NCBI GenBank assembly: GCA_017458145.1
Contig: JAFTGA010000060.1
Coordinates: 1-36,087, forward strand
DNA: 36,087 nucleotides
DNA from: Bacteroidales bacterium
GTDB lineage: Bacteria > Bacteroidota > Bacteroidia > Bacteroidales > UBA932
Direction: 5' to 3'
Each line of letters begins with the position of its first letter. Within the stretch, counting starts at the first letter, position 1. The notes beneath the pieces are model-generated. The model saw nothing but the letters and a program-made list of their open reading frames with translations, had not been told where the DNA came from and did no database searches. The translations under genes and the position numbers were made by a program. This document shows positions 5,215 through 32,442 of the stretch, one piece after another.

Positions 5215-6222
5215 ATGTTGATGTTTGCCCGTGCCTATTTCCTGTGGCTTCTGCTGCTCGTGCCCGTGATCCTGATCGGGTATGCGCTGCTGCGCCGCCT
5301 GCGCAGGGAGCGCTTGCGCCGCTTCGGCGACGAGGCGCTTGTCCGCGCGTTGATGCCTTCCTGGTCCCCTGCGAAGGGGTGGTGGCGCACCGTGCTTTTC
5401 TGCATCGGCTTCGCCTGTTTCTCCATCGGCCTCGCCCGGCCGCTGCTCGGCGCCAAGCTCGTCGAGCGCGAGACCAAGGGCGCCGAGATCATGATCTGCC
5501 TGGACGTCTCCAACTCGATGCTCGCCCAGGACTACTCCCCGGACCGCCTGTCACGCGCTAAACTGGCGATCTCGCGTATCGTGGACAAGCTGCAGGGAGA
5601 CCGCATCGGCCTGATTATCTTTGCCGGCAGCTCTTTCGTGCAGCTGCCGATCACCACGGACTACGTGTCCGCCAAGATGTTCCTCGGCTCCATCGACACC
5701 CAGTCGGTGCCCGTGCAGGGCACGGCCATCGGGGACGCCATCCTGACGGCCGCCAAGAGCTTCAGCACCCAGAGCGAGAAGAGCCGCGCAATCATCGTAA
5801 TCACCGACGGCGAGAACCACGAAGACGATCCTGTGGACGCTGCGAAACAGGTGGCGGAGACGGGCATCCGCGTTTACACCATCGGCGTGGGGTCGCTGCG
5901 CGGCCAGCCGATTCCCAAGGACGGCGACCTGATGAAAGACCAGGACGGCAACATCGTCGTGACCCGCCTGGACGAGGAGACGCTGAGGCGCGTGGCTTCC
6001 GCCGGCAACGGCGCATACGTCCACGCCGGCGGCGAAGAATTCGGCCTCAATCCGATCCTCGACGAGATCCGCAAACTCGAGGACGAGCGCTTCAATTCCG
6101 TCGTCTTCGAGGAGTATGACGAGCAGTATATGTATTTCTTTGCCGCGGCGCTTTTCTTCTTCGTGCTGGAGATGCTGATCGGTGAGCGCCGGGCCAAAAG
6201 GAGGTTGTTCGATGAAAACTAA
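5215..6222 (+). CDS. batB: BatB, membrane-anchored vWA protein
   Basis: This 335-residue paralogue of BatA lies 1 bp downstream of it. It has an N-terminal span (FLWLLLLVPVILIGYALL) and a second span near 59-75. The vWA domain carries the MIDAS motif DVSNS (97-101) and TDGENHEDDP. A C-terminal span lies near residues 300-325. Compared with BatA, the vWA domain holds a longer loop (QPIPKDGDLMKDQDGNIV) that carries the usual BatB features. BatA and BatB are expected to work together in the inner membrane with BatC, BatD and BatE. The stop codon overlaps the batC start by 11 bp. Confidence 0.93.
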   Translation: MLMFARAYFLWLLLLVPVILIGYALLRRLRRERLRRFGDEALVRALMPSWSPAKGWWRTVLFCIGFACFSIGLARPLLGAKLVERETKGAEIMICLDVSNSMLAQDYSPDRLSRAKLAISRIVDKLQGDRIGLIIFAGSSFVQLPITTDYVSAKMFLGSIDTQSVPVQGTAIGDAILTAAKSFSTQSEKSRAIIVITDGENHEDDPVDAAKQVAETGIRVYTIGVGSLRGQPIPKDGDLMKDQDGNIVVTRLDEETLRRVASAGNGAYVHAGGEEFGLNPILDEIRKLEDERFNSVVFEEYDEQYMYFFAAALFFFVLEMLIGERRAKRRLFDEN

Positions 6223-24079: not shown

Positions 24080-25068
24080 CCGAAGTCATCACCTCCGCTT
24101 CGAATCCGAAGATCAAACGGCTCCTCGCGTTGCAGCAGAAATCCTCTGCACGGCGCGAGGCCGGTCTTTTCGTGGTCGAAGGGAGGCGGGAGCTCCGGCA
24201 CTGCCTCGACGCCGGCTTCGAGATCGACACGATCTTCCACTGCCCCGGACTGCTTTCCACTCCGCCGGGCGGCTGGGTCCCTCCCGTTCACGAAGCCACG
24301 GGCGGCTACGGTTCTTCGGCTGCGCCTGCCAGAAAACCTTTTTCTTCGGAGGCGGTAACTGCCCCAGGAAACCGTGCCACCCTCGGCACCGTAAGAGGGG
24401 GGACCGCAAGCGAAGCGCAGCGGTGGGGTCGAGCGAAGCGAGACGTTTCCGGGGGCAGTTCGCCGCGACGAAATTCTGAAAAGGTTTTCGCGGTAAGCGG
24501 AGACGTGTACCGGAAGATAGCGATGCGTGAGGGGACGGAGGGGGTGATCGCGGAGGTCAGGATTCCGGAGCGGCGCCTGGAAGACCTGTCGCTGCCGGAG
24601 AACCCGCTGGTGATGGTGCTGGAAAGCGTCGAAAAGCCCGGGAACCTCGGAGCGGTGCTGCGCAGCGCCGATGCCGCCGGGGCCGACGCCGTGCTCTGCT
24701 GCGACCCGCTGACCGACCTGTGGAACCCGAACCTCATCCGCGCCTCGGTCGGCGCCGTATTCACGGTCCCCTGCGTGTGCTGCGGTTCGGAGGAGGCGAT
24801 CGCCTTCCTCAAGGCGCGCGGCATCCGCATCCTGACGGCGCAGCTGCAGGATTCTTCCCTCTATTACGACTGTGGCATGACCGGCGGCACCGCCCTCGTG
24901 ATGGGCACGGAGGCCACCGGGCTCACGCCGCAATGGCGCGAAGCGGCCGACGCCCACATCCGCATCCCGATGCTGGGAGCGCTGGACTCGCTGAACGTGT
25001 CCGTCTCCGCCGCCATCCTCCTTTTCGAAGCCGTCAGGCAACGCCAAAACACCCGCAACGATGGATAA
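24076..25068 (+). CDS. SpoU/TrmH-family RNA 2'-O-methyltransferase carrying an internal palindromic insert
   Basis: This SPOUT-class methyltransferase probably acts on rRNA or tRNA ribose. An N-terminal substrate-binding domain begins [19 protein letters not shown] and [14 protein letters not shown] motifs are motif 1 [20 protein letters not shown] with RSADAAGAD, motif 2 [10 protein letters not shown] and motif 3 [20 protein letters not shown]. Length is 330 residues instead of about 255. The excess is residues ~61-135, a low-complexity stretch with no family similarity, inserted between [10 protein letters not shown] and [15 protein letters not shown], which would normally lie close together. 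The insert preserves frame and falls in the linker between the N-terminal domain and the SPOUT fold, so the enzyme may still work. Overlaps lysS by 4 bp and aroE by 8 bp. Confidence 0.87.
24256..24480 (+). repeat. Palindromic insert of ~225 bp inside the methyltransferase gene
   Basis: Nested inverted repeats: GAAAACCTTTTT (24332-24343) pairs with GAAAAGGTTTTC (24478-24489), 11 of 12; AACTGCCCCAGGAAAC (24357-24372) pairs with GTTTCCGGGGGCAGTT (24445-24460), 15 of 16. Inside are smaller stems: GTGCC/GGCAC (24374-24389), ACCGC/GCGGT (about 24403-24424) and the repeated motif GCGAAGCG. The left ~75 bp (24256-24330) has its own small stems but no partner on the right. Exact borders are inferred from where the protein similarity resumes. 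Confidence 0.8.
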
Positions 25069-25720
25069 ATTCGGACTGATCGGCTACCCGATCGCACATT
25101 CCCTCAGCCCTGCACTGTTCCGTGCCGCCTATCACGGAAAATACCTCTATGAACTGATCGAAACCCCCGATTTCGAACAGGCCTGGGCCCGGTTCCTGTC
25201 GGACTACAGGGCCATCAACGTCACCGCGCCCTTCAAAGGGCACGCCTTCGACCGGGCCGACTGGACCAGTCCCGAGTGCACCCGCTGCGGCGCGACCAAC
25301 CTCGTCGTGAAGACCCCGGACGGGCTCAAGGCCTACAATTCGGATTATCTAGGCGTCAAGGCGCTGCTGGAGCCGCTCGGACGCGGCACCGCCGCCGTGA
25401 TCGGATTCGGCGGCGCCGGCAAGGCCGCCCTGGCCGCTGCGGAAGACCTGGGCTTCAACACGACGCTCTGGCGCCACGCGGAGATCGCCCGTGGCGTGCA
25501 GGCCGACGTGATCATCTACACCCTGCCCCGCTTCGCCCCGGGCGCCGACCGGCTCGAATGCACGCACCTGATCGAGGCCAACTACAAGGATCCCTGCCTG
25601 TCCGCCCGTCCGGGCTACATCCCCGGCACGGCCTGGCACCTCCAGCAGGCCGTCCTCGGCTACGCCCTGATGACGGGCGAGGCGCCCGATCCCGCTCCGA
25701 TGCGGACAGTCTATCGCTGA
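25061..25720 (+). CDS. aroE: Shikimate dehydrogenase, compact form
   Basis: This enzyme reduces 3-dehydroshikimate to shikimate in aromatic amino acid biosynthesis. Motifs are YPIAHSLSP (9-17), the shikimate-binding/catalytic lysine K59 in NVTAPFKG, D95 in YNSDYLG, and the Rossmann glycine loop GFGGAGKAA (115-123). The protein is short (219 residues against about 245-280): the stretch after the Rossmann beta-2 strand, which normally holds the NRT-type NADP-binding loop, is reduced to TTLWRHAEIARG. It overlaps the methyltransferase gene by 8 bp and converges with aroK, the next enzyme of the pathway, with a 10-bp overlap of the two 3' ends. Confidence 0.92.
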   Translation: MDKFGLIGYPIAHSLSPALFRAAYHGKYLYELIETPDFEQAWARFLSDYRAINVTAPFKGHAFDRADWTSPECTRCGATNLVVKTPDGLKAYNSDYLGVKALLEPLGRGTAAVIGFGGAGKAALAAAEDLGFNTTLWRHAEIARGVQADVIIYTLPRFAPGADRLECTHLIEANYKDPCLSARPGYIPGTAWHLQQAVLGYALMTGEAPDPAPMRTVYR

Positions 25721-26226
25721 TCCGACATGATTTTTGTAATCTTGAGAATCTCCCCCGCCACTTCGGCGGGGGTTTTTCCGTCCGTATCGACGGTCAGCTC
25801 CGCCTGGGCATAGAGGGGCGCTCGGGCGGCGTAGAGCGCGTCGGCATCCGCGAACAGGGGCCGGGAGGCGTCGGAGGCCCCCAGGCGCTGCCGGATGGTC
25901 TCCAGGCGGGTGCGCAGGAAGACGCTCCGCGTACGCGAAAAGACCAGTTCGCGGGCCTCTGACAGGGTCAGGGCGCCGCCACCGAGAGCGAGCACGGTGT
26001 CCTGTCCGGCCGCATCCGCCTCGTCGAGCACGGCGCGGAGCGTCGCCAGTTCGACGGCCCGGAAAGCCGCTTCGCCGCCTTCCCGGAAGATGTCCGGGAT
26101 GCTCCGGCCCGTCCGGACGACGATTTCGCCGTCCAGGTCGATGAAACGTGCGTCCAGCCGTGCCGCCAGTTCGCGCCCGGTGCTGCTCTTGCCGCAGCCC
26201 ATGAATCCGGTGAGGGAGATGATCAT
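25711..26226 (-). CDS. aroK: Shikimate kinase
   Basis: The 171-residue enzyme phosphorylates shikimate at O3. It begins MIISLTGFMGCGKSSTGREL, whose P-loop is G7-x4-G-K13-S14. The D of DLDGEIV, the R of FREGGEAAFR and the glycine-rich LALGGGALT bind shikimate; LFADADALYAARAPLYAQA is the lid-to-C-terminal region. I chose ATG 26226 because the family starts there; the ORF extends to 26265. It is convergent with aroE, and its last codons contain the apparent aroE terminator. Two decayed partial copies of this gene lie at 27029-27126 and 29995-30174. Confidence 0.95.
   Translation of the reverse strand: MIISLTGFMGCGKSSTGRELAARLDARFIDLDGEIVVRTGRSIPDIFREGGEAAFRAVELATLRAVLDEADAAGQDTVLALGGGALTLSEARELVFSRTRSVFLRTRLETIRQRLGASDASRPLFADADALYAARAPLYAQAELTVDTDGKTPAEVAGEILKITKIMSDQR
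25752..25777 (+). terminator. Intrinsic terminator for aroE, embedded in the aroK coding sequence
   Basis: CCCCCGCC (25752-25759), loop ACTTC, GGCGGGGG (25765-25772) and TTTTT (25773-25777) form an 8-bp perfect GC stem with a T-run, 31 nt after the aroE stop. On the minus strand the same bases encode KTPAEVAGE near the aroK C-terminus. Copies recur in both aroK remnants (27047-27072, 30016-30040). Confidence 0.82.
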
Positions 26227-26246
26227 TATACACCTATTATTCCATA

Positions 26247-26254
26247 CAAATATA
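26247..26254 (-). promoter_or_regulatory. Candidate -7 box for aroK
   Basis: The minus strand reads TATATTTG, 21 nt upstream of the aroK ATG at 26226. No convincing -33 box at the right distance. Confidence 0.5.
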
Positions 26255-26325
26255 CAAGATTTCAAAAACGTATGAGGTGGCTGGAAGCAAATTCGTTAAA
26301 TTCAAAATTAATCATCTGAAAAATT

Positions 26326-26354
26326 TTGAATTTTAGAACTTAACCCTAACTTTG
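26326..26354 (+). promoter_or_regulatory. Promoter for higBA
   Basis: TTG at 26326-26328 (within TTTTG), 18-nt spacer, TAACTTTG at 26347-26354. The predicted start lies near 26358, about 13 nt before the higB ATG at 26371. The surrounding 26227-26346 is AT-rich with several AATTTT/AAAATT stretches that could be operator half-sites for the HigBA repressor, but I cannot define them. Confidence 0.65.
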
Positions 26355-26370
26355 CGACAAAGATCGCCGT

Positions 26371-26670
26371 ATGAGAATTGTGTCACACAGGAAGTTGAAG
26401 GACTTTTACAGCCAGCCCGGAAGAGAAGACGCCAAGGCACCTCTTGAGCACTGGTATGCCATCGCGGATAATGCCGTCTGGTCAGGACTGACGGATATCC
26501 GGAAAGATTTTGCCTCGGCGGATTATGTGGGGAATCAGCACTATGTTTTCAACATCGGAGGGAACAAGTACCGCTTGGTGGTCGTGGCGGAATTCATGAT
26601 GGGCTATCTCTTCATCCGTTTCGTCGGCACGCATCAGGAGTATAACAAAATCGACGCATCAACAATATAG
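26371..26670 (+). CDS. higB: HigB-type toxin (type II toxin-antitoxin, RelE-like mRNA interferase)
   Basis: This 99-residue protein matches the HigB_toxin family: MRIVSHRKLKDF start, APLEHWYAIADNAVWSGLTDI in the middle, then FNIGGNKYRLVVVAEF and LFIRFVGTHQEYNKID at the end. Members cleave mRNA on the ribosome when not bound by HigA. The toxin-before-antitoxin order and the 3-nt gap to the HTH gene support a HigBA pair. It lies between intact aroK and an aroK remnant, so it is probably acquired cargo. Confidence 0.92.
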   Translation: MRIVSHRKLKDFYSQPGREDAKAPLEHWYAIADNAVWSGLTDIRKDFASADYVGNQHYVFNIGGNKYRLVVVAEFMMGYLFIRFVGTHQEYNKIDASTI

Positions 26671-26673
26671 CCT

Positions 26674-27033
26674 ATGGGACGTATCACGGAAATGCAATAC
26701 CAGTATGCGCTGGAGCGCATCGAGGACCTGCTGCCGCTTGTCAGCGGGGAGGATCCGAATGAGGAGAAGGCGGTGGAACTTTCCATCTATTCCGATATCA
26801 TCATCGAATATGAGAAAGAACATTTCCCCATTGAGAAGCCGACTCCCGCTGAATTGATCCAGGAGTCTCTTATTGAGAAACAGCTGACCCAAAAGGAACT
26901 GGCTTCCCGGATCGGGGTCAGCCCTTCCCGGATCAGCGACTATGTCTCCGGCCGGGCTGAACCGACCCTGCGGATTGCCAGCCGCCTCTGTGCCACGCTC
27001 GGGATCACCCCTGCCGCCATGCTCGGTCTGTAA
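26674..27033 (+). CDS. higA: HigA-type antitoxin with HTH domain
   Basis: The 119-residue antitoxin and probable autorepressor of the higBA operon. N-terminal ~65 residues are helical and acidic; the C-terminal HTH_3/XRE domain contains LTQKELASRIGVSPSRISDY and VSGRAEPTL. The longer N-terminal arm fits the HigA type in which the antitoxin neutralises the toxin by wrapping it. Its stop codon lies at the exact edge of a sequence block similar to the aroK 3' end, which supplies a downstream terminator-like hairpin. Confidence 0.9.
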   Translation: MGRITEMQYQYALERIEDLLPLVSGEDPNEEKAVELSIYSDIIIEYEKEHFPIEKPTPAELIQESLIEKQLTQKELASRIGVSPSRISDYVSGRAEPTLRIASRLCATLGITPAAMLGL

Positions 27034-27126
27034 TCCGGAGAAGTTTCCCCGCCACTGCGGCGGGGGATTTTTCGTCCGTATCCACCATGCAGGCGGCCTA
27101 GGCATAGAGCGGAGCGCGGTAGGCGA
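27029..27126 (-). pseudogene. Decayed aroK C-terminal remnant (copy B)
   Basis: Minus-strand translation gives VAYRAPLYA, a TAG stop, AACMVDTDEKSPAAVAGKLL and RITD. This aligns with the intact AroK C-terminus (AARAPLYAQAELTVDTDGKT ... PAEVAGEILKITK). Only about the last 33 codons are present. One CAG has become a TAG stop. DNA identity to intact aroK is roughly three quarters over 85 bp by eye, so this copy is older or from a more distant donor than the one at 29995-30174. It starts within the last bases of higA. Confidence 0.75.
27047..27072 (+). terminator. aroK-derived terminator after higBA
   Basis: CCCCGCC (27047-27053), loop ACTGC, GGCGGGG (27059-27065), then TTTTT at 27068-27072. It starts 13 nt after the higA stop. 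Same hairpin as at 25752, with the loop changed by one base. Confidence 0.72.
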
Positions 27127-27201
27127 CCACGATGCTGCCACCAGAAATTGGGCACAATATTCCAGCCCAGGTCTATGCGATGACCGCATAAGAAGGGAAA
27201 G

Positions 27202-27232
27202 TTTGGAAATAATCAAAAAAAAGCTATTTTTG
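27202..27232 (+). promoter_or_regulatory. Promoter for the subtilase-lipoprotein pair
   Basis: TTTG at 27202-27205, 19-nt spacer, TATTTTTG at 27225-27232: a textbook Bacteroidota promoter. The leader to the ATG at 27303 would be about 66 nt. The rest of 27127-27302 contains no other supported feature. Confidence 0.75.
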
Positions 27233-27302
27233 TATCTAATAACCAAAGAGAGATTAATTTAGAAAACCTGTCAATCAGAGAGTCCCAATCAAACAGCTTC
27301 TT

Positions 27303-29363
27303 ATGAGACATTTTTTCTTTTTGTTTTGTTTCATCGTCCCTTTAATGGGAGGATGTTCGTATCTCTCCTTAAAGGAGCAAAATTTTTCCCTGCCCGCCCA
27401 AGATCAAAATCAAGTTTCAACTAAGGCGCATACGAGGAATGAAATCTTTTATTATTATTTCGACCAAAGAATCTCTTTGCAGGAACGGCGCGATTTACTT
27501 TTTGTACATTTTCGCGATGAACCGTCTCAAGAGCATTTTTTTTCGAACCTCAATTACACAACAAATTTCAAGAAATGGACTCCAGGGGGAGAAGCCTTTT
27601 CTTCCCTTTCCTCTAAGATTTCAGTGATTCAGTCCACCAATGGGGACTTTACGGAAGATTTTACTGTGAGCCTATCGAAGCACGAAGACATTGAGTTCGT
27701 TTCATATGTTTTGGAATATCAAGGGAGGTTTTCTGCTGTTGACAATTCATTTTCAGTTAAATTAAAGAATATCTCTGATTTGGGAAGGGTACAAGCCCTA
27801 ACGGATAAGTATGGGTGTAAACTCATCCAGGAAAAATTATCTGGAGAAAATATCTATTATGTTCAAGTAGGAGAAAAAACCGAACAATCTTCCATCCAAC
27901 TTTCTGATATCTTTTTTGAAACCGGACTCTTCGAATTCAGCTCACCTGCTTTCTACTCCTTTGATGCTTTAGAGTCAGAAGATCCTTTCTTCAGTTATCA
28001 GTGGGCTTTGTCCGGATCCGGGCCTTTTGAACTTACCGGGGCGCCAATCAATATCACTCAAGCATGGAGTATCACCGAAGGCAGCAGCAACATTACTGTA
28101 GCGGTCTTGGATAACGGCGTAGAACTGAATCATCCGGATCTAGCAAGTAATTTAATAACAGGGTATGAATATCAGAGCAGCAATGGGGGTGCTCCTGTAT
28201 ATGGCACAGAATATCACGGAACAGCCGTTGCTGGCATAATTGGTGCCCAAAAAGACAATTCACTTGGCATCAGTGGCGTTGCTCCAGGATGCAAAATTAT
28301 GCCAATTCGTGTATTGGAGAATAATGTTCTCAACTATACAAAAGCCGTGGAAGGCATCTATTGGGCACGCAATAACGGAGCAGATGTCATTAACTGCTCT
28401 TGGCGCGCCAACAATCCTTGTGCATTGTTGACCAATGCACTTAATAACGCGCCTGGTTGCGTTGTGGTGTTCTCTGCAGGAAACGATTATAGCGAGGTAA
28501 ATTATCCCGCCTCACTGCCATCCGTTATTGCCGTTGGAGCGACAGAACTTGACAGAAGCCGTGCTAATTTCAGCAGCTATGGAGTCGAATTGGATCTTGC
28601 CGCGCCTGGTGTTTACATTATGACAACTGACCGCCAAGGGAGCAACGGAACTAATACTAGCACATCATCTTTAGATTGCAGTAACCGAGATTATACTTGG
28701 CTTTTTGGTGGGACTTCAGCAGCAGCGTCGTACGTATCTGGAGTTGCCGCCTTAATTCTTTCCAAATATCCAGACTTAAGTAAATCTCAGGTCCAGCGTG
28801 CTCTTGAACTTGGATGTTCAAAACCATCTGGATACACATACACCCAAGATTCATATTATCCAGTCGGTTATTGGAATAATGAACTTGGATATGGATATAT
28901 TAATGCTTATCAATCTCTTTATCAAGCTTCCATCCTACACCAGCAGAATGTCCTGGACAGTTCAGCGGGCATTGATATTTACGTTGAAAACAATTCAAGT
29001 GTTGACTTAGAGGATGTTTTCGTTCTACTGCAGGGGCAAATCGATGGTGCCACGACCACATTGATTTCTTGCATTATTCCCGATCTGCAAAATGGACATC
29101 CGGAAGGGTATCCGGTTTATCGGGGAGAAACCATTTCAGCAACTCCCGGAACAACTATTACCAACCTGCATCTGGAGATATCCGCACATACCGAAACCTA
29201 CGGACAAGATGTCCGGATTGCGGCAGGCATTGACGAGTCCGTTCTTTCGGACTATGATGATTTTTTCTTCGCGACAAGTGGCAGCACCTATCAATGCACG
29301 CTTCCGAATACCACTGTCCCCAATGCGTCCAGACGCATGTTATATATTGAAATAACTTATTAA
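27303..29363 (+). CDS. Subtilisin-like (S8 family) serine protease, surface or periplasmic lipoprotein
   Basis: The 686-residue protein opens with a lipoprotein signal peptide (MRHFFFLFCFIVPLMGGC, lipobox cysteine C18). A ~230-residue N-terminal region could act as a propeptide. The S8 domain covers about 245-545: catalytic D270 in VAVLDNGVELNHPDL, H305 in EYHGTAVAG, oxyanion N394 in FSAGNDYS, and S472 in FGGTSAAASYVSGVAALI. The last ~140 residues are a beta-rich C-terminal domain. The usual proline after GTSxA is serine here. DNA is visibly AT-richer than the flanking genes, with TTA, ATA and AAT codons common, indicating horizontal acquisition. It is followed 10 bp later by a second lipoprotein gene. 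Confidence 0.92.
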   Translation: MRHFFFLFCFIVPLMGGCSYLSLKEQNFSLPAQDQNQVSTKAHTRNEIFYYYFDQRISLQERRDLLFVHFRDEPSQEHFFSNLNYTTNFKKWTPGGEAFSSLSSKISVIQSTNGDFTEDFTVSLSKHEDIEFVSYVLEYQGRFSAVDNSFSVKLKNISDLGRVQALTDKYGCKLIQEKLSGENIYYVQVGEKTEQSSIQLSDIFFETGLFEFSSPAFYSFDALESEDPFFSYQWALSGSGPFELTGAPINITQAWSITEGSSNITVAVLDNGVELNHPDLASNLITGYEYQSSNGGAPVYGTEYHGTAVAGIIGAQKDNSLGISGVAPGCKIMPIRVLENNVLNYTKAVEGIYWARNNGADVINCSWRANNPCALLTNALNNAPGCVVVFSAGNDYSEVNYPASLPSVIAVGATELDRSRANFSSYGVELDLAAPGVYIMTTDRQGSNGTNTSTSSLDCSNRDYTWLFGGTSAAASYVSGVAALILSKYPDLSKSQVQRALELGCSKPSGYTYTQDSYYPVGYWNNELGYGYINAYQSLYQASILHQQNVLDSSAGIDIYVENNSSVDLEDVFVLLQGQIDGATTTLISCIIPDLQNGHPEGYPVYRGETISATPGTTITNLHLEISAHTETYGQDVRIAAGIDESVLSDYDDFFFATSGSTYQCTLPNTTVPNASRRMLYIEITY

Positions 29364-29373
29364 TATATAAAAT

Positions 29374-29922
29374 ATGAAAAGAGCATTTATCTTACTGATC
29401 TGCCTTCTGCCTTTCATCGGAGGGTGTATGAATAATCTGGAATATATCTTCAACAGTGATGATGCCAATATCCTCGCCCCCGTATCAGATGAAAATGGCG
29501 TTATACTGGTCTTTGACGATAAGGACTGCAACGGTGGTTTCCAGCTGCTGACTCATATGGTACTGGATAAAATGGGGCTCACCTCCAAGATGAAAAGTTG
29601 GGATAAAGATGGCCTGGATGCCGTTGCCGCAGTGATTAATGACCAGAGCCTGTTGGAGAATTACGTCAACGGCGACAACGTGTATCTTTGGCCGGAAATT
29701 GATTTCGAAAAATATTCCCTGGTGATTGGCTGCTATTATGCCACAAGCGGAGGTCAACAGGTTCACAATCAACGTCTCATTCCAAAGAAAGAATCGCTGC
29801 AACTCTACCTTGAGATAAAGGACCTTGGAGGAACTGCCGACATACGCACGAGATTTTTTGGCGCCCTTTTTCCCAGAGTTCCCGATCTTCCGGTCGATGC
29901 CCATCTTTGGAATAACCGATAA
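29374..29922 (+). CDS. Small lipoprotein, partner of the subtilase; unknown family
   Basis: The 182-residue protein has a lipoprotein signal peptide (MKRAFILLICLLPFIGGC, lipobox C18) very similar to that of the upstream protease, so both should be sorted alike. I do not recognise the mature domain. It has alternating hydrophobic strands in the second half (YSLVIGCYYATSGG; LQLYLEIKDLGG) that faintly recall the PrcB protease-complex subunit of dentilisin-type operons, where a subtilisin-like lipoprotein protease and a small lipoprotein work together. This is a guess from architecture only. A role as inhibitor or chaperone of the neighbouring protease is equally possible. Confidence 0.8.
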   Translation: MKRAFILLICLLPFIGGCMNNLEYIFNSDDANILAPVSDENGVILVFDDKDCNGGFQLLTHMVLDKMGLTSKMKSWDKDGLDAVAAVINDQSLLENYVNGDNVYLWPEIDFEKYSLVIGCYYATSGGQQVHNQRLIPKKESLQLYLEIKDLGGTADIRTRFFGALFPRVPDLPVDAHLWNNR

Positions 29923-29994
29923 CTCCGAAACTGTCAAGTTACAGGGTCGTACTTACAATTAGGGACTTCCGGTTCTATCCTCAAATCAAAGACG

Positions 29995-30174
29995 ATTTGA
30001 CGATAGAGATAATCTCCTCCGCCACTTCGGCGGGGGTTTTCCGTCCGTATCGACAGCATCGGGGGCCGGGGCATAGACGGGCTCGCGGGCGGCATAGAGG
30101 GCGTCGGCATCAGCGAACAGGGGCCGGTGCTGCTCTTGCCGCAGCCCATGAATCCGGTGAGGGAGATGATCATT
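29995..30174 (-). pseudogene. aroK: aroK pseudogene with internal deletion (copy C)
   Basis: Both ends of aroK are present but the middle is gone. The 51 bp at 30124-30174 are identical to 26177-26227 of intact aroK (start codon, MIISLTGFMGCGKSSTG). They join directly to sequence matching the C-terminal part (LFADADALYAAREPVYAPAP, then VDTDGK). About 316 bp are missing, at a CCGG shared by both edges, suggesting a microhomology deletion. One T is also missing from the T-run after the hairpin, a second frame break. The C-terminal part differs from intact aroK by scattered substitutions (roughly 87% identical by eye) while the 5' part is identical, so the two halves have different histories. 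Confidence 0.85.
30016..30040 (+). terminator. aroK-derived terminator after the subtilase-lipoprotein pair
   Basis: CCTCCGCC (30016-30023), loop ACTTC, GGCGGGGG (30029-30036, one T-G wobble), TTTT (30037-30040). It lies 93 nt after the lipoprotein stop, in the same position relative to cargo as the hairpins after aroE and higBA. Confidence 0.7.
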
Positions 30175-30193
30175 TTTTTGGAAACTTACCGGA

Positions 30194-30201
30194 CAAAGAT
30201 A
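30194..30201 (-). promoter_or_regulatory. Relic -7 box of the aroK pseudogene
   Basis: The minus strand reads TATCTTTG, 22 nt upstream of the pseudogene ATG (30173). It probably marks an ancestral aroK promoter, which would place aroK next to and divergent from ssb before the cargo arrived. On the plus strand only an imperfect box (TATCTTGT, 30225-30232) is seen ahead of ssb. Confidence 0.4.
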
Positions 30202-30252
30202 CACGCAATCCGGGAAAAAATCCCTATCTTGTGAGACTAAATTTTTATCGTT

Positions 30253-30804
30253 ATGTCACTGAACAAAGTCATGCTGATCGGTAACGTTGGAAGAGATCCC
30301 GAAGTACGTTACCTCGAAGGAAACAACCCCGGCGGACAAGGCCGGAAAGTCGCAACATTCACCCTGGCCACCTCGGAGCGCTTCCGCGACCGCAACGGCG
30401 AGACCCGCGAGAACACGGAATGGCACAACATCGTGGCCTGGGGGCAGCCTGCCGACGTGTGCGAGCGTTTCGTGCACAAGGGCACGCAACTCTATATCGA
30501 AGGGCGCCTGCGCACCCGTAAATATACGGACCGCAACGGACAGGAGAAGTACACCACCGAGATCAACGTGGATACCCTCCAGCTCCTGGGCCGCCGCGAC
30601 GACGGCTATCAGGGCGACCAGCCGCAGGGCGGCGGTTACCAGCGCCAGGGCGGATACCAGCAGGGCGGTGGCTACCAGCAGCATCAGGGCGGCTATCAGC
30701 AGCCCCAGCAGCCCGCCTATCAGCAGCCGGTCCAGCAGCCCGCCCCGCAGGCCCCGGCCGCTCCCGCCGCCGAGGAAGGCCCGACCGACGATCTCCCGTT
30801 CTAA
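30253..30804 (+). CDS. ssb: Single-stranded DNA-binding protein
   Basis: The 183-residue protein has an OB-fold in the N-terminal ~115 residues: MSLNKVMLIGNVGRDPEVRY, FTLATSERFRD, TEWHNIVAWGQPADVCERFV and KGTQLYIEGRLRTRKY. A disordered linker rich in G, Q, Y and P follows (about 118-172). The acidic tip DDLPF recruits repair and replication partners. It is the first gene of a tight run with two MFS genes and dxs (gaps 12, 0 and 3 nt). Confidence 0.96.
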   Translation: MSLNKVMLIGNVGRDPEVRYLEGNNPGGQGRKVATFTLATSERFRDRNGETRENTEWHNIVAWGQPADVCERFVHKGTQLYIEGRLRTRKYTDRNGQEKYTTEINVDTLQLLGRRDDGYQGDQPQGGGYQRQGGYQQGGGYQQHQGGYQQPQQPAYQQPVQQPAPQAPAAPAAEEGPTDDLPF

Positions 30805-30816
30805 TCCCTCCCCGCC

Positions 30817-32442
30817 ATGGCAGACAAACTCCAAACGACGCTTCGCGACTCCGCCGCCATGCGCTGGACAGCCCTGCTGCTCCTCGCCCTGGCGATGTTC
30901 TGCGCCTATATCTTCATGGACATCCTGTCCCCGATCAAGGACCTGATGGAGTCCACGCGGGGCTGGGATTCGAAGGCATTCGGCACGATGGAGGGGTCCG
31001 AGACCTTCCTCAACGTGTTCGTGTTCTTCCTGATCTTCGCGGGCATCATCCTCGACAAGATGGGGGTCCGCTTCACCGCCGTGCTCTCCGGAGCCGTGAT
31101 GCTGGTGGGCGGCATCATCAAATACTACGCAATCAGCGAGCCCTTCATGGGTTCCGGCCTTGAGAACTGGTTCGCCACCCACCTCAACTGGCACACCGGG
31201 ATCGGATTCATCGACGACGTCCTGCCGTTCTACCAGGGGATGCCCGCCTCGGCCAAACTCGCCGCGCTGGGATTCATGATCTTCGGCTGCGGCTGCGAGA
31301 TGGCCGGCATCACCGTCAGCCGCGGTATCGTCAAATGGTTCAAAGGCCGGGAGACGGCCCTGGCGATGGGCTCCGAGATGGCCCTGGCGCGCCTGGGCGT
31401 GGCCACCTGCATGATTTTCTCCCCCTTCTTCGCCAGGCTCGGCGGCCAGGTCAACGTCAGCCGTTCCGTCGCCTTCGGCGTCGTGCTGCTCTGCATCGCC
31501 CTGATGATGTTCATCACCTACTTCTTCATGGACAGGAAGCTCGACAGCCAGACCGGCGAGGCCGAGGAGAAAGACGACCCGTTCAAGATCAAGGACATCG
31601 GCAAGATTCTCTCGAGCCTGGGATTCTGGCTTGTCGCCCTGTTGTGCGTGCTCTACTATTCTGCAATCTTCCCGTTCCAGAAGTATGCCGTCAACATGCT
31701 CCAGTGCAACCTGACCCTGACGGAGCCAGCAGCCGGATCGTTCTGGGCCGGGGAGGCCGTGACCATCATCCAGTACATCATCATGCTGGTGGTGGCCGCC
31801 TGCTCCTTCTCCAGCAATTTCATCAAAGGCAACAAATCCTTGAAATTCGGCCTGATGGCTGCCGCAATCGTGGCGCTGGCCGTCTATTGCGTGATGGGAT
31901 TCAAGCGCGGCACGGCCGAGACGATCTTCGCGGTATTCCCGCTGCTCGCCGTGGCCATCACGCCGATCCTGGGCAATTATGTCGACCACAAGGGCAAAGC
32001 CGCTTCGATGCTGCTCATCGGCTCGGTCCTGCTGGTGTTCTGCCACCTCACCTTCGCCTTCATCCTGCCGCTGTTCAAGGGCAGCGCCGTGGGCGGCGCG
32101 ATTGTCGCCTATGTCACGATCCTCGTCCTGGGCGCCAGTTTCTCCCTGGTCCCCGCAGCCCTCTGGCCTTCGGTACCCAAGCTGGTGGATGAGAAAATCA
32201 TCGGCTCCGCCTATGCGCTCATCTTCTGGATCCAGAACATCGGCCTCTGGCTGTTCCCGATCCTGATCGGCAACGTCCTGACCAGCACCAATGCACCCGG
32301 CACGGCTCCCGACCAGCTCAACTATACCTGGGCGCTGGTGATGCTGGCCTGCCTCGGCGTCGCCGCCATGCTGATCGGGCTGTACCTCAAGGTCGTGGAC
32401 AAGAAGAAGCACCTCGGTCTGGAAGAACCCAACATCCGGTAA
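30817..32442 (+). CDS. MFS transporter 1
   Basis: The 541-residue membrane protein has about 12 spans. The loop motif between spans 2 and 3 is present as GIILDKMGVRFT (variant of GxxxDRxGRR), and repeats in the second half as NYVDHKGKAA. ARLGVATCMIFSPFFARLGG and VPAALWPSVPKLVDEKIIGS are family-like blocks shared with the next gene. Substrate cannot be read from sequence. The first periplasmic loop is long (about residues 100-145). Tandem with a related MFS gene whose ATG follows this stop codon directly. Confidence 0.88.
   Translation: MADKLQTTLRDSAAMRWTALLLLALAMFCAYIFMDILSPIKDLMESTRGWDSKAFGTMEGSETFLNVFVFFLIFAGIILDKMGVRFTAVLSGAVMLVGGIIKYYAISEPFMGSGLENWFATHLNWHTGIGFIDDVLPFYQGMPASAKLAALGFMIFGCGCEMAGITVSRGIVKWFKGRETALAMGSEMALARLGVATCMIFSPFFARLGGQVNVSRSVAFGVVLLCIALMMFITYFFMDRKLDSQTGEAEEKDDPFKIKDIGKILSSLGFWLVALLCVLYYSAIFPFQKYAVNMLQCNLTLTEPAAGSFWAGEAVTIIQYIIMLVVAACSFSSNFIKGNKSLKFGLMAAAIVALAVYCVMGFKRGTAETIFAVFPLLAVAITPILGNYVDHKGKAASMLLIGSVLLVFCHLTFAFILPLFKGSAVGGAIVAYVTILVLGASFSLVPAALWPSVPKLVDEKIIGSAYALIFWIQNIGLWLFPILIGNVLTSTNAPGTAPDQLNYTWALVMLACLGVAAMLIGLYLKVVDKKKHLGLEEPNIR

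Follow-up and report, generated by a model that had tools for sequence, protein, structure and literature searches.

The window analysed here is the entire contig JAFTGA010000060.1 (C20; 36,087 nucleotides) of assembly GCA_017458145.1 from a Bacteroidales bacterium (UBA932), a draft metagenome genome of 2.18 Mb in 64 contigs with 80.5% completeness. Between aroE and ssb it carries three minus-strand copies of aroK, each placed after a plus-strand gene block: an intact gene after aroE (W1), a 3′ end after the toxin–antitoxin pair higBA (W2), and an internally deleted gene after a subtilase gene and its partner lipoprotein gene (W3). We read this array, with about even confidence, as the product of stepwise displacement by host recombination of the type known as homology-facilitated illegitimate recombination (HFIR). 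The coordinates are collected in Table 1.

All three copies were recovered where a sequence-only reading of the window, made before any database search, had placed them, and the unequal decay described there was borne out by alignment to W1. Of W2, only the last 98 bp are left: 27029-27125/6 aligns to 25735-25831 (76–79% over 97–98 bp) and, on inspection of the alignment by eye, carries an in-frame TAG. W3 retains both ends, 30008-30127 aligning to 25744-25864 (86% over 122 columns) and 30124-30174 to 26177-26227 (100% over 51 bp), with 316 bp of the middle gone. This gap lies between two CCGG motifs, is not divisible by three and resembles the outcome of a simple deletion between 4-bp repeats. 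The matches between the copies (E = 1e-31, 1e-19 and 3e-14) are far beyond chance, and W1 was the sole aroK match in its own genome at E ≤ 1e-38. Since the 3′ part of W3 is nearer to W1 (86%) than to any relative (at most 80%), the copies probably derive from a single lineage or from closely related ones; W2 is likewise nearest to W1, and not to the aroK of relatives that bear higBA. Taken alone, the 51-bp identity of W1 and W3 stands out (0/46 differences against 26/133 in the contrast, Fisher p = 0.0004), but two species pairs with 12–14% divergence at the 3′ end likewise show 0/46 differences at the aroK 5′ end, and a role of the perfect repeat as crossover tract or target duplication was dropped because relatives are equally conserved there.

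Table 1 Features of the aroE–ssb region (positions in the window)
Feature	Position	Strand	Evidence
aroE (shikimate dehydrogenase)	25061..25720	+	Pfam Shikimate_dh_N; stop-to-stop overlap with W1, 10 bp
aroK W1, intact, on the aroE side, without ancestral promoter	25711..26226	-	Pfam SKI, E = 2.4e-35
Hairpin and T run in the 3′ end of W1	25752..25777	+	-18.8 kcal/mol, p = 0.01 against 100 synonymous shuffles
New junction, W1 start to higB start, 144 bp	26227..26370		26227-26345 without found relative
higB toxin	26371..26670	+	Pfam HigB_toxin 2.1e-29; PADLOC PD-Lambda-2_A 1.6e-32
higA antitoxin, stop overlapping the W2 homology by 5 bp	26674..27033	+	Pfam HTH_3; PADLOC PD-Lambda-2_B 3.4e-16, partial model
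aroK W2, displaced 3′ end only, in-frame stop	27029..27126	-	76–79% to W1
Hairpin and T run in W2	27045..27072	+	-17.9 kcal/mol
S8 subtilase, apparent lipoprotein	27303..29363	+	Pfam Peptidase_S8 9.7e-53; lipobox by eye
Partner lipoprotein	29374..29922	+	no Pfam or PADLOC match; adjoins the subtilase in 5/5 copies
aroK W3, native place, 316 bp of the middle gone between CCGG repeats	29995..30174	-	sequence and alignment to W1
Hairpin and T run in W3	30016..30040	+	-15.8 kcal/mol
Ancestral aroK/ssb divergent promoter region, 78 bp	30175..30252		86–93% over 60–75 bp in best relatives
ssb, fixed anchor side	30253..30804	+	Pfam SSB 5.6e-36

The ancestral state of the locus was assessed in 19 relatives, namely the 16 loci L034–L049 and the stretches L130, L131 and L132; L133, of the same 8,570-bp size and place as L038, and L050, more distant and with a different gene order, were excluded. 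Divergent aroK and ssb were found in all 19, with 66–82 bp between the start codons, and the junction of aroK with aroE is empty in five relatives, where the two stops overlap (L037, 8 bp; L041, 9 bp; L045, 14 bp) or stand 40 bp (L047) or 95 bp (L039) apart. The original order aroE-aroK-ssb, as proposed from the sequence alone on account of an aroK start and a -7 box in the last copy, is thereby supported. What we take to be the -7-type box, TATCTTTG, is indeed present at 30194-30201 of the minus strand. One correction follows from the comparison with relatives: aroK natively lies next to ssb, and by gene order it is therefore W3, not the intact W1, that holds the ancestral position, with the ancestral 78-bp spacer.

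Judged by the same relatives, the clade-wide variable region lies past the aroK 3′ end, on the aroE side, and not between aroK and ssb, where it had first been expected. The gap there holds higBA in L038 (at a contig end, no aroE seen), L043, L044 (broken) and L046, and other cargo comprises a PIN-domain gene with a HicB-like partner (L044), a PCC-domain gene (L046) and BlaI with an M56 peptidase (L035). The genes higA and aroK share 6 bp in L044 and L046 and lie 58 bp apart in L038 and 238 bp apart in L043. On four sequences (L034, L036, L042, L131) the orientation of aroE to aroK is reversed, as an inversion of a lysS-rlmB-aroE block would leave it; aroE was not found on the L130 and L132 stretches.

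Against this background, the window retains three ancestral junctions, each joining an aroK part to its old neighbour: a 10-bp overlap of W1 with aroE, a 5-bp overlap of W2 with higA, and the 78 bp between W3 and ssb. The new junctions are those before the W1 start codon, between W2 and the subtilase gene, and between the lipoprotein gene and W3. Old junctions that are kept, together with the newest aroK at the anchor, constitute the pattern predicted by displacement, and more than one displaced part, W1 and W2, is present, as successive additions would leave. In such a process, incoming DNA from a related cell would carry aroK with different genes past its 3′ end; homologous recombination would take place on the ssb–aroK side, and an illegitimate junction with recipient DNA would form at the far end. 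The resident aroK, or only its 3′ end, would then escape replacement and be pushed outward together with the neighbour to which it was already joined. For the window, three events are envisaged. In a first, higBA and aroK would have entered with a junction before the old aroK start codon, displacing the whole gene beside aroE (W1); in a second, the subtilase pair and aroK would have entered with a junction inside the aroK 3′ end, displacing 98 bp beside higA (W2). In a third, whose loss of 316 bp is seen in the sequence and whose timing is conjectural, the aroK beside ssb would have decayed to W3, leaving W1 as the only intact copy found.

At the first of the new junctions, homology to the region upstream of the relatives' higB begins at 26345-26346, and the preceding 26227-26345 gave only short, weak matches elsewhere in the same genome. 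A palindrome at 26298-26333 could be a HigA operator. The start of the only intact aroK found lies head to head with higB, 144 bp away.

Parallel arrangements were found at other genes of the genus. The subtilase was searched for in 300 genus genomes (E ≤ 1e-60), giving five copies in three genomes, each with a lipoprotein gene adjoining; the sites are beside aroK, a DUF389 gene (Pfam), and ksgA-, gpmI- and TPR-regulator-like genes (by eye). In genome G119, one pair lies between the DUF389 gene and a 106-bp copy of the end of that gene (95% identical), and this copy still overlaps the next gene, an aldo/keto reductase. A close reductase was present in 9/151 genomes; in four of these (G008, G015, G065 and G000, the genome of the window itself) the DUF389 gene runs directly up to the reductase with a single gene end, i.e. 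the site is empty, and for the remaining four genomes that have the reductase but not the cassette, no DUF389 gene was found in front. In G293, higBA lies between two terminator copies (64 bp, 95% alike) of which G127 has one; the two genomes share 96% identity over the 1.87 kb that lead up to the cargo, and 82% over the 3.0 kb that follow. At this parallel higBA site, the drop in identity fits an import ending at the cargo, with an imported tract on the anchor side and native sequence on the far side. In G036, two identical copies of the dnaK terminator, 46 bp each, flank a YefM/YoeB-like pair. For dnaK, 53/61 genomes gave matches and the best 30 were taken as loci; one was too short and 29 were tested (three more with < 700 bp downstream), G036 being the only one with a terminator copy. 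By eye, the dnaK terminators of L203–L232 look unrelated between species.

Flanking repeats were found at 2/5 subtilase pairs (1/4 without the window) against 2/600 random intervals of equal length, with settings that were not identical: 1500-bp flanks and E ≤ 1e-6 for the subtilase, 1200-bp flanks and default scoring for the control. The higBA flank test covered 30 loci, with L174 left out and L158 and L177 without one flank, so that 27 were usable, some of them short-flanked; repeats were seen at three, i.e. the window, L162 and L178 (a pair of related genes). Both cargoes thus occur elsewhere with the ends of other genes or with none, and the idea of 'cargo + aroK end' as a mobile unit was abandoned.

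Several results weigh against displacement by import. No second aroK piece was found in the gap of any of the 15 relatives in which it measures at least 60 bp (it is shorter in the other 4/19), the only DNA match being 20 bp in L034; the variety of cargo anticipated for related genomes was thus observed, but the accompanying aroK fragments were not. In a direct-repeat scan of 88 sequences (1.46 Mb), the window was alone in having aroK 3′-end repeats, judged by coordinates, and is a single case of aroK scars at this locus among the relatives tested. A donor of the window's cargo was not found and no import tract is demonstrable in the window; a mosaic test of the flanks pointed to no single donor, the best relative being L037, L034, L035, L036, L041 or L130 depending on the piece. 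The proposed dating of the copies by divergence was rejected, as the alignments are too short and noisy to order events (W1–W2 21/98 columns, W1–W3 17/122 columns) and W2 and W3 are dead copies. At the parallel sites, the two gene ends in G119 are 95% alike, all five differences falling in the final third, and neither exceeds 75% identity to other species, so that within-genome duplication would be an equally good reading there. Three of the five subtilase pairs lack flanking repeats, and a general higBA repeat rule is unsupported (3/27 against 21/600 random intervals, no clear excess). Finally, the genome is a draft metagenome assembly.

The process could instead have been a single crossover, in which circular DNA with aroK and cargo recombines once with the chromosomal aroK and leaves direct aroK repeats around the cargo. 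Campbell integration of this kind predicts what is seen at the outer borders, the aroE side being kept by W1 and the ssb side by W3, and a paper on E. coli reports integration of circularised incoming DNA by single crossing-over (PMC3240628). By itself it would not explain W2, a mere 3′ end joined to higA as in relatives, and none of the four cargo open reading frames (ORFs) scanned was named as a gene of plasmids or of replication; we regard it as unlikely. Somewhat more doubtful still is local duplication without import, by which template switching or repair would copy 50–130 bp of nearby gene ends beside new genes, or inserts would leave long, variable target duplications. The repeat lengths across sites do vary (46, 64, ~97 and 106 bp), the G119 copies are nearer to each other than to any relative, and G097 holds a chain of 80- and 125-bp gene-piece copies with 97–99% identity (L200, 6292-10176), one piece coming from an apparent short-chain dehydrogenase gene. 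It is countered by the sharp identity fall at the G293 cargo, which fits import, and by W1, a whole gene and far longer than the other copies.

An assembly artefact, with strains of different alleles joined into one contig, is improbable. The draft state of the genome and the one exact 51-bp repeat within the array would allow for it, but both flanks have normal neighbours on one 36-kb contig, the remaining repeats are 76–86% alike and presumably too divergent to mislead an assembler easily, and analogous structures occur in independent genomes. Of the two mechanisms that the sequence-only reading had offered, we favour the one that works through homology in aroK; the alternative, a site-specific integrase (or another mobile element) that targets and rebuilds the aroK 3′ end, is very improbable. 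Repeated 3′ ends, each with a hairpin, would suit such an element. The earlier remark that no integrase is visible was borne out for the tyrosine type: Phage_integrase gave seven matches in the genome and none on the contig, in a search that genome-wide covered this family and not serine recombinases or transposases. Moreover, the same cargo stands elsewhere at unrelated genes, the repeat length is not constant, and higBA-bearing relatives have no aroK repeats. A transposon with target-site duplication is not supported, as lengths are not constant and no transposase was found among the four cargo ORFs (Pfam).

Each of the three aroK 3′ ends also resembles a terminator of the genes that precede it. 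A terminator scan of 25000-30400 gave 12 sites against 6.0 in shuffles; the three sites richest in G-C pairs are the three aroK ends, oriented with the preceding genes, and transcription of each block plausibly still ends at its scar. Among 20 aroK ends (the 19 relatives and W1), a strong hairpin was found in six (p ≤ 0.04 against 100 synonymous shuffles: W1, L034, L035, L039, L040, L132) and none in eight; L041 has one with p = 0.37, and L047 one with p = 0.02 at a negligible -1.7 kcal/mol. By these predictions, the aroK end appears to double as terminator of the convergent neighbour in only part of the clade. The hairpin is absent in the higBA-bearing relatives L043, L044 and L046 and weak in L038 (-2.5 kcal/mol), which argues that higBA does not need it. 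The W2 hairpin is kept despite ~21% divergence: in simulated decay of the W1 end, a hairpin of W2 strength was kept in 1.7–1.8% of runs with all changes placed on W2 and in 13–14% with half of them. For W3, the corresponding values were 14% and 46–48%, which makes its retention unremarkable. Substitutions numbered 7/66 in the hairpin and 33/153 in the rest (p = 0.058; counts hand-entered from alignment identities). Retention of the aroK ends by selection is suggestive only.

A broader claim would be that toxin–antitoxin and other small cargo are added in this Bacteroidales genus by a general route, displacement at housekeeping-gene 3′ ends, that displaced ends are selected as ready-made terminators of the added genes, and that the process is able to relocate an essential gene. 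We consider this rather unlikely as a whole. Addition of small non-mobile cargo without an integrase is hard to see, as successful events are usually traceless; where a sister species has the empty site, gene-end scars allow such events to be counted and may indicate their direction. A terminator role of the scars, if real, would also help to explain the survival of new operons at convergent gene ends. A biosynthetic gene may also come under new control through a recombination accident: if the displacement reading is true, the only intact aroK found has lost its old promoter and now stands opposite a toxin gene at 144 bp.

With regard to the cargo itself, Pfam and PADLOC scans covered the four ORFs. 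For the PADLOC defence system PD-Lambda-2, the higBA pair (26371-27033) gave a match to the A model and a partial one to the B model. The partner lipoprotein has a predicted fold with a mean pLDDT (predicted local distance difference test score) of 80.6, which gave no match among solved structures at E ≤ 0.001; in a survey of 200 genomes, its family was also found away from the subtilase in several.

Further observations concern the surroundings and other loci. The transporter gene after ssb (30817-32442) has divergent alleles in the clade, with 89% nucleotide identity to L037, ~80% to L035, L047 and L131, and ~66% over part of the gene to other relatives. An extra hairpin-rich segment lies in frame at 24345-24495 within a SpoU methylase gene (by eye), and the ksgA-like gene of L153 (~5250-5530) seems to hold a similar insert (by eye). 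In L085, a 120-bp, 72% repeat starts within its aroK; in L084 (6167-7523), 122-bp repeats of 89% identity directly past aroK enclose a gene that by eye resembles a Y1-type transposase gene.

Integron cassette arrays are tandem units of cargo and hairpin, and the array of the window is likewise tandem. It differs from integrons in that no tyrosine recombinase (Phage_integrase) is encoded on the contig and in that its hairpins are aroK coding ends and not known attC sites. A closer counterpart is found in the orphan immunity-gene arrays of the Vibrio cholerae type VI secretion system (T6SS), for which successive displacement was described, HFIR proposed and no evidence of an integrase reported (Kirchberger et al. 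2017, PMC5361080). Both share stepwise insertion by a fixed anchor with old gene parts moved outward. The V. cholerae anchor is an effector locus and the cargo consists of effector–immunity modules (PMC5361080), whereas here the anchor is a biosynthetic gene, the cargo consists of toxin–antitoxin and protease pairs, and a whole displaced gene seems now to be the working copy. The C-terminal displacement of Rhs and contact-dependent inhibition (CDI) loci, as mentioned in the same source (PMC5361080), likewise leaves displaced 3′ ends strung out after a constant 5′ part; unlike the Rhs ends, which are toxin domains, the aroK ends carry no toxin and would be useful at most as terminators. HFIR itself was shown experimentally in E. 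coli and, earlier, in three naturally competent species (PMC3240628). The proposed events share with it one homologous and one illegitimate end (PMC3240628), but those in E. coli were rare laboratory events. A literature search aimed at the aroK/aroE locus in Bacteroidales found nothing on this locus. By analogy with the arrays proposed for Vibrio T6SS and Rhs loci, the array of the window would thus be a variant of a known process; what is new is that the anchor is a biosynthetic gene, that the cargo is of another kind, that the working copy has seemingly changed, and that there is evidence from empty sites at other genes.

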